From the NCBI RefSeq assembly GCF_037975245.1, contig NC_092567.1, positions 18,482,876-18,546,875 of the forward strand: DNA of 64,000 nt, read 5' to 3'. Position numbers and translations under genes: made by a program. Below are positions 43,838 to 63,628 of the stretch, piece after piece. The notes below the pieces were generated by a model that was not told the DNA's origin, searched no databases, and worked only from the letters and a program-made list of their open reading frames with translations. Origin of the DNA: Apostichopus japonicus. Lineage: Eukaryota > Echinodermata > Holothuroidea > Aspidochirotida > Stichopodidae. Numbering within the stretch: position 1 is the first letter of the stretch; the number at the start of each line of letters is the position of its first letter.

Positions 43838-53770
<9,933 letters not shown>

Positions 53771-58044: not shown

Positions 58045-58220
58045 TCAATGTATTCTGGTCAGTTCTTCGACAATCTTGACAAGGTCGTTTACGGTCGCAT
58101 CTCGCTTCATTCCTCCCTCGTCGATCTGCAGAGAGAACACAAAGGAGATTGCAAGAGTAAGTTCTGGAAATATACTGGATATATATATACTGGATATACA
58201 TACATATATATATATATTGG

Positions 58221-58287
<67 letters not shown>

Positions 58288-61200
58288 GCAGTTATTTATA
58301 AGTTTTTGTGCGGCAGTATATAAATTGTGAAAGTTACTTATTTGTATTGCACACTGTCTGCGTGTTTACCCTAGCGTCGTCGCATCGTGTTGGGAGACAG
58401 GTGTCAGACGAAAGAGCTCTGTATTTGGGTTTGAGTATTAAAATCATTAAAAAAGAGGACGCTCCCTTGACGACTATCTAAGCTTTAACAGTGGTGAAAG
58501 AAAAATCATAGCAAAGAAAACAAATGGGAATTCCCTCCTCGGTGATACAGTCTGTATCAATCAAGTTAAATGTTTCGTATAAAGTAAGCGGGGACATTAT
58601 TTTGTACCCTAAGAAAGATATCGCTGATTAAAAAATTTCAGTTGGAATAATTTTAAGTAACGTGGCCTATAATTAATTGATTCCATTATTACTTTATTTT
58701 GTTGTCAATAAATATTGATTGATCCGAATTCGTTTTTATATTCTATTCCAGTGTTCTCGATTCGTCTTTAACGCATTTGGAGACTCGCACCAAACCGCGC
58801 GCCGCCCTGTGAAAATGTTAACTTTCTGTTGCCAGCAAGTGAAGTTTTTTTCTTGTAGCTACAAAATGCAGACAGTAATGAAACGTGATACCTTGTTATC
58901 TTTCATCTAGAACTGACATTTCCACGCTGCTATGTACACTGTGTTATGGGTATTGACCGTAGCGGCATGTAGTGACTGTACACTAGTGTCTAAATACCAA
59001 CGGTAGCAAGCTGTGTGTTTATTTTCTGGGAACGATGGTGGTGTCTAACACTTCTGTTCAAGGGCGGCGGAACCGGGGGGGCACAGGGGGCACGTGCCCC
59101 CCCACTTTTCCTCAGGTTAAAAATGTGCCCTTTTTCTACATAAAAATTGAGGTGTCTCAAGTTAGCAAGAGGCCAGGGAACCAGAATGAACACTCGGGAA
59201 GGGCCGTTTCCGGCCATCTGAGGGGTTTGTAAAACTAAAAAATTTCTTGTACGCTCCGCGCCAACCGATGGTGGCGCTCCGCTCAGATAGTCGTGCATAC
59301 AACTTTGCAAATCCTGGCTACGCCCCTGACTTTTAATGAATTTCTGTGGCTCAAACTCAAAGCTATTTCGAATAAAAACAAAATGGTTAAGATATTAACA
59401 AGAAATTAACTCTAATTCAGAAGATTCCTACTTTAGCAACTAGCATGATTTCACCTCATTTTGTCTCAAAAGAAAACTTGTTCCTTGTTTCCCAATTTGC
59501 ACATTGGATATTACAGTGCTAGTATGCATATTTTCCTTGAGTGGGGGGGGGGGGGGGGTTGATGGAGTGATGTGTATACGCAAATAAGATAATACAATAA
59601 GAGTTATAAAGGGTACTAAATATAAGGCTGCATCAGTCCAATCGAATTTCTGCAAAGTGCCCTTTGATGTCGGTGCCCCCCCAGATTAAAAGTGCTTCCG
59701 CCGCCCTTGCTTCTCTTACACCTCAGTTACAACTAGGTCAGATTACCGGCATGAGACGTTTCTTTGTGTGCAAGTCTTCACACCCTTTAAAATATATTTC
59801 AGCGATCATTATTTTGGAAGTGGTCACAGACCTGAAGAGGTATGTGACCGTACACTCATTTCTTGTTTTGTAGTTTCCCATCCTTCACTTGATGTGAATG
59901 GTCCAAATATTTAAGCTCTAACTGCTCAGTTAACTGTTTAATAGTTAACTGTTTAATCTTGCACTATTTTCTGTTTATAACTCGATGTAATGGTTGGTCA
60001 TTCTTAGTTTTGTATTCATAGATTTACATTTTGCTCTGTAGTTTTCACGGAGGCTAATTAGAATAATGCCATGTGTATCTGCGCCCCGTTCCACTACAGT
60101 AATGATTATATCTTCAGTATTCGTTCCCCTGTAGCTATTTTCTTGTATGTTGGGTGACACCCACCATAATAGACCTTTCCCGGTATTTTCTTCTGTTGGG
60201 TAACACCCACCATAAAAGAACCTTAGAACCGTTCCCTGTATTTTCTTATATGCTGGGTTTACATTCACCATAAATGACAACCATTCCCTGTAACTGTTTT
60301 CTTCTATGTTGGGTAACACCCACCATAAGAGACAACCATACACTGTAGGTATTTTCTGGTATGTTGGGTTAACATTCACCATAAAAGACAACCACCATTC
60401 CCTGTAACTGTTTTCTACTCTGTTGGGTAACTCCCACCATAATAGGAAACCCGTCCTCCCTTCATGTTTAATTCTACAAACAAATACTTTCTAACTACAT
60501 GAATATTGGCATCTTGTCTATAAACGAAACCTGGTTGGACAAAGTCATCATTTGTGTTTACTTCATTCATTGCAAAATACAAAAGACAATGAAGTAACAT
60601 CGTTAGAGGAATAAGTACCGTATTATTGGGCTAATGTTATCATAGGCTTTCAATGCTCCTCAAATATGTTCCACTTTAATACAGTTTCAAAACTCTTACG
60701 GGGATGTCAATTTTGCCCCCCAAAAAATGAAAAATCTGGATTTGTAATACTCGGAAAAAAATGACTCCCTCCTTTCAATGAATGCTGAATGTTACCTGCA
60801 GTCCTTGAGACACTTCCTCCATCTTGTCTTGGTTCAACTCCAGGAAACTTTCGATGAGATCGCCGTCGATGAAGTTCTGCATCGGCTCTGTCTTCTTGTC
60901 GGTGTGGAACGACCTCCAAGTGCATCATAAATCAGTCAAGGAAATGCGTTAGGATAAGAGACGCTTTTTGGCCAAGATATGACCCCAAAATTAAAAGAGT
61001 TTTCTATTAAAGACATGTAAATGCAGTATGAACCATCAAAGTTAACCTTTGCAAGAAGAGCAAGGGCTGTTTTGAGAAAAAATGTTATCTGATTCTTTCA
61101 GGATCAGCATTGAGGTGAACATTCAATGGGGTATGCAGGGGTGTTAAAAGGGGTGAAGGGGGGGGGGGGAACAATTGCCACTACATTATCTCTTCTAAAA

Positions 61201-63628
61201 CTTCACCATTTGGTACCCACTCTCACTGGTACACCATGTGGGGCAGACACTGGCTGTCGTCATAAAGGACAAGTTAACCCAACCATCACCTTTAGCTGAT
61301 CTGACAGCAATCTTCGAGATGAATGACCCCTCTACAGACCCGAGAAAAATATTGCGTCGCTTGTAAGATATTAAGGTTTTCAAATGTCATGTCATGGGGC
61401 TGCCACTTTGTGACGTCTCAGTGGCACTGGAAGGTGAAAGATTTTGATTTTTAATTCCATTTTGTTTCACATTTTCAAGCTGAAAATAACCGGTAGTGAC
61501 ACAAAACTGATGCTAACGTTATTAGTCATGCTAAAAATCTATAAAAATAAAAATATCTTCTGTTGCAGCATTTTCAAAACCTATCTCTGTTTACAGACAT
61601 AATAAACATTGCAATACATCAGGAAAAATATTAAAAAATACAAGAAAATGTGACTGTGTGATGTCATATTTAGACTTGCTCAAGACTAGATGTTTGCTTA
61701 GCTGTTTAGGAAGGGTGTTTATTCATCACAGGAGGAGGATGATGATGATGATGGTGATGATAACAATGACGATGATTGGGTTTTGCTTCCCCACTAATAT
61801 TTTACCCCCAAAAAGTATCTTCTGTTAAATTACAAAGGATATAAGCTATGATCAATTTTGCCAACGCTTTTGATGACCTTCGTGAGTTTGTTCTGCACTT
61901 CGAGGAGGAACTTGTAGAAATCTTCCGTGAGCTGGGTCATTAGACCTGCGAGAATGAAAAAAGAGAGATGAAGCGTCTAAGAATTTCAACAACCAAAATA
62001 ACAGGTTTTTTATTTCTAAATATGGTAAGAATTGCCATGATCAAGATAGCATTCATAAAATATCTCCCAAATTTGAAAACTTTCACATCTTTGTCATACA
62101 GAATATTACAGGGATATGGTTTTGAAATAAACAGGAAGACAAATTCCAGCAACTTTTGATAAGCAATCCACCTCAGCCACCGGCAGGGTAAAAAAAAAAA
62201 TCACTGAACTCTGCAAAACTTGCGGTATAGGCTCCAGTTTGCATATGCTACAGTGTGTTAGGATAATAGTTTTTGTCCCTGAGGTAGAAAAGAAATCATG
62301 GATATTCCGCGAATTCGCAGAAAAATCTCATGCCTGCACCGAAAAAAGTCGTTCAAGTAGTGGAGGACTTGAAACGTCCCTTCTTCTCTTACCGACAGTT
62401 CCGTCTGCGGTTCCGAAGAGCAGACTTCCCTGAGTGGAGAGACTGCTTTCTCCTATGCTACCTCTCACCAGGGAGCCGTGTCTGAAGACGTTGACGAATT
62501 CTCCGAGATGGAACTGTCCCACCTGAGCTAGGTTCCTCCTGTCGTCATCCGTTGTGGCTGCGCTGTTAATTTAGAAAACACAACGAGCTAAACTTAGAAA
62601 GGAACATTTCATAGTGTTTGATCTTGCTAAAAGAATAAAGGGTGAGAGAGTTGTGCAGAAATAATCACATGGAAACTATTAATAATTCATGAGCTCCATT
62701 AAAGCAGCAATCAGGGTTTCAATCGTCTTCAAGACTAGCACTAATAAGATCATACAACATTGACTATATCAGATAAGAACACATTATTCCTTTAAAGTAG
62801 CATATAGCTTGGAATATAATAGAGGCATACACAACATTGATGATATCTAATTAGAATATATTGATAAGCTCCTTTAAAGTAGCATATAGCTTGGAATATA
62901 ATTAAAAGAGGAATACATAATATTGATCATATCTATAAGAACATATTGATGAGCTCCTTAAAGCAGCATATAGCTTGGAATATCATAAAGAGGCATACAT
63001 AACTTTGAACGTATCTATAAGAACATAAGCTCCTTTAAAGTAGCAATTAGCTTGGAATATCATAAATAGAGGCATACACAACATTGATCATATCTAATAA
63101 GAACTTTAATATTGATAAGCTCCTTAAAGCAGCATATAGCTTAGACTATTGTAAATAGAGGCATACACAACATTGATCATATATATAAGAACATATTGAT
63201 AAGCTCCTTTAAAAGTAGCATAAAGCTTGGAATATCATAAAAAGAGGCAAACACAACACTGATCATATCTAATAAGAACACTTTGATAAGCTCCTTAAAG
63301 CAGCTTTGAGGGTTCCATCCAGCTTTGAGAATCACAACACGAGGCCCACACAATATAGACCATACCAAGGAAGAACATACTCCGTCAAGAACATCTCCTT
63401 TAAGAAGCACAAGTCATTCCATGTCGCTTCCAAGGTAATCTATGTAAGAGACAGCATCTGGACTACATACGCACCGGTTGTTGTAGGTAAAAATTCAAAA
63501 TCTTTCATCAGTTAATACCTGTCTTTCTGGCAGACGAACAGATTGCTGTTATGCTCGGCCCCGAGGAAGGTATCGTCGTCGAGGATTTCGACAGCCGTCA
63601 TCCAGTTAGGGCTGTAGTTTCTTGCAAT
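58045..63628 (-). CDS. DDB1: DNA damage-binding protein 1, C-terminal 195 residues (partial, 5' part beyond the window)
   Basis: DDB1 is the adaptor of CUL4 ubiquitin ligases, joining the cullin to substrate receptors, with roles in nucleotide-excision repair and replication control. Exons in transcript order: 63519-63628, 62393-62562, 61843-61945, 60796-60919 and 58045-58125. Together they encode the end of the protein with close identity to vertebrate DDB1: NPNWM-type start ([15 protein letters not shown]), [44 protein letters not shown] and the terminal [13 protein letters not shown]. This corresponds to the last blades of the third propeller and the C-terminal helical domain of a protein of about 1140 residues. 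Three introns are GT-AG. The intron 60920-61842 is AT-AC with U12-type signals; only that splice restores the conserved HSFWRSFHT. All phases agree. The first exons lie right of 64000. Confidence 0.96.
58171..58284. repeat. (TA)n microsatellite close to the last DDB1 acceptor
   Basis: TA repeats interrupted by TGGATATA units, starting 46 bp upstream (in the transcript) of the last DDB1 acceptor at 58126. Length changes could affect branch-point choice, though this is speculation. Confidence 0.9.
59059..59709. mobile_element. hAT-like element in the last DDB1 intron
   Basis: 651 bp with perfect 14-bp inverted ends, CAAGGGCGGCGGAA and TTCCGCCGCCCTTG. It is flanked by near-identical 8-bp repeats CTTCTGTT (59051-59058) and CTTCTCTT (59710-59717). 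The interior has GGGGGCAC/GTGCCCCC palindromes and, near 59310-59329, CTGGCTACGCCCCTGA, which resembles the right end of another hAT-like family and may mark a nested remnant. No coding capacity. Confidence 0.7.
60120..60445. repeat. Six tandem units of about 57 bp in a DDB1 intron
   Basis: Marker GTTGGGTAACACCCACCATA recurs at about 60150, 60194, 60251, 60308, 60363 and 60422, each followed by a CCCTGTA...TTTTCT block. Units vary from about 45 to 59 bp. Confidence 0.85.
60920..61842 (-). other. AT-AC (U12-type) intron of DDB1
   Basis: Minus-strand intron of 923 bp. The donor is ATATCCTTTG (61842 down), matching the U12 AT-AC consensus ATATCCTT at every position. The branch site is TTCCTTGACT (60943-60934), also consensus, with the branch A at 60936, 16 nt from the intron end. 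The acceptor is CAC. Joining AGC-TT to T-TGG-AGG gives S-F-W-R, the conserved DDB1 sequence; no GT-AG alternative nearby does so. Confidence 0.9.
62184..62336. repeat. 153-bp interspersed repeat, copy 2
   Basis: Same length and order as the copy at 57218-57370, beginning CAGGGTAAAA and ending CTCATGCCTG. It lies in a short DDB1 intron (61946-62392), 57 bp from the next exon. Confidence 0.65.
62760..63310. repeat. Tandem repeat of 77-89 bp units in a DDB1 intron
   Basis: The block AAGCTCCTTTAAAGTAGCAT followed by ATAGCTTGGAATAT and AGAGGCATACACAACATTGA recurs with markers near 62799, 62881, 62965, 63042, 63131, 63217 and 63302. It fills most of the intron 62563-63518. Confidence 0.85.

Follow-up and report, generated by a model that had tools for sequence, protein, structure and literature searches.

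A U12-type AT-AC intron predicted in the 3' part of DDB1 in Apostichopus japonicus

The 3' end of DDB1 lies on the minus strand of the window, which is the whole 64-kb stretch of Apostichopus japonicus DNA that was analysed. Judging from this DNA, one of the introns of the gene (61842..60920, minus strand) almost certainly belongs to the AT-AC subtype of U12-type introns. Protein homology determines the junction uniquely, and the donor, the branch site, the branch distance and the terminal dinucleotides found at that junction all support the minor-class reading, which an earlier note on the same DNA had put forward. If it is true, an essential adaptor of the CUL4 ubiquitin ligase relies on the minor spliceosome at this position, and retention of the intron would truncate DDB1.

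The DDB1 exons and the junction between them

Five exons were read at the 3' end of the gene, and the candidate intron separates the third and fourth of them:

63628-63519, minus strand: DDB1 exon, read in frame
62562-62393, minus strand: DDB1 exon, read in frame
61843..61945, minus strand: DDB1 exon 5' of the AT-AC intron, 103 nt, from translation and an ungapped match to human DDB1 at the junction
60920..61842, minus strand: predicted U12-type AT-AC intron, 923 nt, phase 2, from the best of 1,613 joins, the AT and AC ends and the consensus motifs
60796..60919, minus strand: DDB1 exon 3' of the AT-AC intron, 124 nt, starting (F) and ending ...VSQGLQ, from translation
58045..58125, minus strand: last coding DDB1 exon, ending in a stop codon, from translation

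Joined together, the exons encode about 195 residues in an uninterrupted frame, and these align end to end with residues 945-1140 of human DDB1 (numbering counted on the 1,140-residue PDB chains). The Pfam family CPSF_A (PF03178) is matched at 140.9 bits. This C-terminal stretch matches human DDB1 at about 294 bits, whereas SF3B3 and CPSF1 reach no more than 41.4 bits, and on these scores the gene is DDB1 and not one of the two paralogues.

The exon on the 5' side of the intron opens within a Gly codon, of which it carries the last two bases, continues with ...SVGKIDHS and closes with two bases of a Phe codon. The intron thus splits the codon matching human Phe1072 (phase 2), and the spliced sequence AGC TT / T TGG AGG TCG TTC CAC ACC reads S-F-W-R-S-F-H-T, identical to human DDB1. 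In all five of the alignments listed, out of 39 PDB sequences matched, there is no gap at this junction against human DDB1.

How well the junction is determined can be seen from a scan of all joins that keep the frame, contain no stop and have both edges no more than 60 nt away, each scored against human DDB1 (n = 1,613). The 12 best of these were inspected by rank, together with the 25 best of the 56 joins that have GT-, GC- or AT-type ends. The join 61842/60920 has the single top score of 267. The runner-up scores 261, has TA-CT ends and changes the Phe, and none of the 1,613 joins with other ends equals the AT-AC score. It is also the only one among them that restores S-F-W-R-S-F-H-T. No alternative cut gives TTT TGG, because two T come from each exon side; with a single cut giving this sequence, the ends are therefore unambiguously AT and AC. 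GT-AG ends, as expected of a U2-type intron, are not found at the protein-defined junction, and the best GT-AG join scores 234 against 267. The earlier note had given these coordinates, ends and motifs and had claimed that the splice restores the conserved peptide exactly; both statements are correct on the sequence, the second by way of the top-scoring join and its ungapped match to the human protein.

Splice signals and how often they arise by chance

The signals of the intron are the following:

61834..61842, minus strand: 5' splice site ATATCCTTT, matching (A/G)UAUCCUUU at 9 of 9 positions
60935..60943, minus strand: branch site TTCCTTGAC, with the branch adenosine at 60936 and a full match to TTCCTTRAY
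60920..60921, minus strand: 3' splice site AC, the first AC past the branch site itself

The intron begins with ATATCCTTTG and ends with GATGCAC, so that AT and AC are the terminal dinucleotides at the protein-defined junction. TTCCTTRAY is the consensus of the U12 branch site. The donor agrees at all nine positions with the (A/G)TATCCTTT form expected of AT-AC introns of the U12 type, and no second exact copy of ATATCCTTT occurs in the window on either strand. Passages of PMC8199999 give the U12 donor consensus as (A/G)UAUCCUUU and print that of the branch site as UCCUUAAC. The branch site found here is close to TTCCTTAAC and lies one transition away from the printed form, with G in place of A. 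From the branch adenosine to the last intron base (60920) is 16 nt, which is the distance from the intron end that the earlier note had named for its consensus U12 branch site; it falls within the range of 10-20 nt and beyond the optimum of 11-13 nt given in the same passages (PMC8199999). The last bases of the intron, TGATTTATGATGCAC, show no pyrimidine tract by eye, and this is apparent just in the final 15 nt. Over the 23 nt that precede the terminal dinucleotide the pyrimidine fraction is 0.65, to which the branch site itself adds pyrimidines, and two GT-AG controls have 0.65 and 0.87; on this measure the lack of a tract is ambiguous.

To estimate chance, the minus strand of the window was shuffled 60 times with its dinucleotide counts preserved. 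Where homology fixes the junction, the probability of ATATCCTTT is 8.9e-6 and that of TTCCTTRAY at one of the 13 permitted distances is 3.9e-4. Their product is 3.5e-9, and even when multiplied by 1,613 joins it stays below 1e-5. Both strands of the window together contain a single combination of a perfect donor with a perfect branch site and matching end no more than 6 kb away, and this is the DDB1 intron. Such a combination also appears somewhere in 12 of the 60 one-strand shuffles, and the motif pattern by itself is therefore weak evidence. Significance from the motifs alone was for this reason rejected as insufficient; the motif match draws its force from the junction that the protein fixes.

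If the intron is spliced in the manner known for the minor spliceosome, the U11/U12 di-snRNP would recognise ATATCCTTT through U11, to be followed later by U6atac, while U12 would pair with TTCCTTGAC and leave A60936 bulged as the branch nucleophile. The U4atac/U6atac.U5 particle would enter after U11/U12, a step described for the minor-intron pathway in sections of PMC8329584. Cleavage just 5' of A61842, with joining at the first AC past the branch site, would then yield S-F-W-R-S-F-H-T. The A-type (AT-AC) subtype suggests a dependence on CENATAC, which is likely for this intron by analogy with human ones: in the text available from PMC8280824, CENATAC depletion affected 92% of A-type and 24% of G-type human minor introns. 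In the 64-kb window, to which this result is confined, none of the Rfam families, those of the minor snRNAs among them, is matched at the gathering score.

Were the intron retained, translation would meet an in-frame TAA at 61830..61832 (minus strand, position counted by hand) after four extra codons, L-Y-P-L, and the last 68 residues of DDB1 would be lost. A transcript with the intron retained would probably not leave the nucleus or would be broken down. If it were exported, nonsense-mediated decay would be expected, since another intron follows downstream.

Other ways of reading the junction

A GT-AG pair is nested close to the AT-AC ends, 9 and 6 nt away from them:

60914..61833, minus strand: rival GT-AG pair, donor TTT/GTAATT, acceptor TTGGAG, in frame, product HS-LYPL-SFHT

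In the same region a second branch-like site, TATCCTAAC, is present at 60948-60956 (minus strand), just 5' of the U12 branch site and with its second A at 60949. This site could serve as a U2-type branch for the in-frame GT-AG pair. One may then imagine a dual-class intron, in which slow minor splicing leaves room for the major spliceosome to use 61833/60914 and the TCCTAAC site that goes with it. The isoform so produced would carry L-Y-P-L in place of F-W-R close to the C-terminus; or the intron may be one caught partway from the U12 to the U2 type. We regard this as improbable.

A stronger version, in which the true splice is the U2-type GT-AG intron 61833..60914 with TCCTAAC as its branch (A at 60949) and the AT-AC appearance is a relic or chance, is very unlikely. 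The pair does keep the frame and is free of stops, the first AG after TCCTAAC falls in TTGGAG, and the TTTCCTT stretch could act as a short pyrimidine tract. Its product, however, lacks F, W and R, all of them identical in human DDB1, and its score is 234 against 267. The donor is weak as well. On an approximate matrix it scores 1.07 bits, where the three other DDB1 donors in the window reach 3.83, 7.37 and 7.13; among the 50 GT of the intron it ranks 15th, and of all 7,363 GT in the window 29% score equal or higher. Nor would this reading explain why the motifs coincide, for which the joint chance is about 3.5e-9. As the main splice the pair was rejected because of its weak donor and the deletion of the conserved F-W-R. 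It is a potential cryptic site, and passages of PMC8329584 and PMC8280824 describe how cryptic U2-type sites close to minor introns become active when minor splicing is compromised.

It is worth noting that the class of an intron is not defined by its terminal dinucleotides alone (PMC6717393, in the part consulted), and an intron with AT-AC ends may be removed by the major spliceosome. The branch-like TCCTAAC site, 13 nt 5' of the U12-type branch adenosine, could offer such an intron a branch. For the DDB1 intron, whose donor fits the U12 consensus at 9 of 9 positions and whose near-perfect U12 branch site lies in the allowed window, this is extremely unlikely. U2-type AT-AC introns have ATAAGT-like donors, which again speaks against it. 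Known cases are SYCP2 intron 5 and TAF2 intron 1, which share the AT-AC ends with the DDB1 intron; in the pages cited from PMC8280824 they belong to the major class and do not respond to CENATAC depletion, whereas the DDB1 intron has a U12-type donor and branch site.

That the locus is a sequence artefact or a pseudogene and not a working DDB1 gene, as might be proposed for a gene read here from its DNA, is hardly credible: the five exons join into one open frame that covers the C-terminus of the human protein and ends in a proper stop, and the introns are still present, which argues against a retro-copy.

Known minor introns and the surrounding sequence

The U12-type AT-AC reading places the DDB1 intron in a class that includes introns of LKB1/STK11 and IPO5, as treated in parts of PMC8329584 and PMC8280824. 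The likeness is one of class features: AT and AC ends, a donor of the (A/G)TATCCTTT type, a branch site of the TTCCTTRAY type 10-20 nt from the end, a non-zero phase, and a position as the sole minor intron among the U2-type ones seen. The differences lie in the host gene and position and in the branch distance of 16 nt, longer than the optimum of 11-13 nt; nothing substantial sets it apart. The earlier note called AT-AC minor introns rare. This holds with respect to all introns, yet they make up about 22-26% of human minor introns according to passages of PMC10639083 and PMC6717393.

Minor introns as a whole account for about 0.3% of vertebrate introns, and their density in the starfish Asterias rubens is comparable (PMC10639083, in the sections used here). 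The same sections report a bias away from phase 0, with an average phase-0 share of 22%, and phase 2 of the DDB1 intron fits this bias. They also count Asterias rubens among the animals in which the major, and not the minor, introns are more 5'-biased. A location near the 3' end of DDB1, as had been claimed, is borne out, as the intron lies in the 3' part of the gene with the last 68 residues downstream; in view of the 5' bias of major introns in Asterias rubens, as far as those sections describe it, such a position of a minor intron is unsurprising.

In the passages of article text consulted from papers that pair DDB1 with minor-intron terms, a minor intron of DDB1 is not discussed. The word searched for is absent from the main text of PMC6966670. 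The intron may be listed in the public minor-intron database that is described, in the passages at hand, in PMC10639083. Already listed or not, the intron is well formed and ordinary for its class, which is a well-known one, and it leaves existing knowledge of minor introns unchanged. Its main value is comparative: a U12-type intron, a U2-type intron or no intron at the same position of DDB1 elsewhere would be one data point on the loss or conversion of minor introns. Plasmid sequences, searched by tblastn with the exons, and viral contigs yielded no relative, as was to be expected of collections unlikely to include animal DNA.

The other complete DDB1 introns in the window, read from the sequence as controls, are GT-AG in three of three cases:

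62563..63518, minus strand: GT-AG intron, 956 nt
61946..62392, minus strand: GT-AG intron, 447 nt, pyrimidine tract clearly present
58126..60795, minus strand: last DDB1 intron, GT-AG, 2,670 nt

Their ends are CAG/GTATTA...TTAACAG, TCG/GTAAGA...CTCGCAG and CAG/GTAACA...TCTGCAG (slash at the exon boundary), and both introns flanking the AT-AC intron are thus of the major GT-AG type. One minor intron amid major ones is the usual arrangement.

Some of these introns contain repeats. A degenerate tandem array at 62792-63304 (unit of about 86-89 nt, double unit of 166 nt, 82-83% matches) occupies much of the intron 63518-62563. The intron directly 3' of the AT-AC intron contains a second array at 60129-60442 (55/114-nt units, 74-77% matches), and a long (AT)n microsatellite, one of several in the window, is found at 58179-58284, about 55 nt 5' (in gene direction) of the last DDB1 exon. 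Outside the gene, an open frame at 49342-49662 (minus strand) matches the multicopper oxidase domain PF07732 at 104.7 bits and looks like a single exon of a laccase-like gene that shares its strand with DDB1. Between this oxidase and DDB1 there is a reverse-transcriptase fragment at 53061-53690 (minus strand; PF00078 at 34.7 bits), which may be a decayed non-LTR element.
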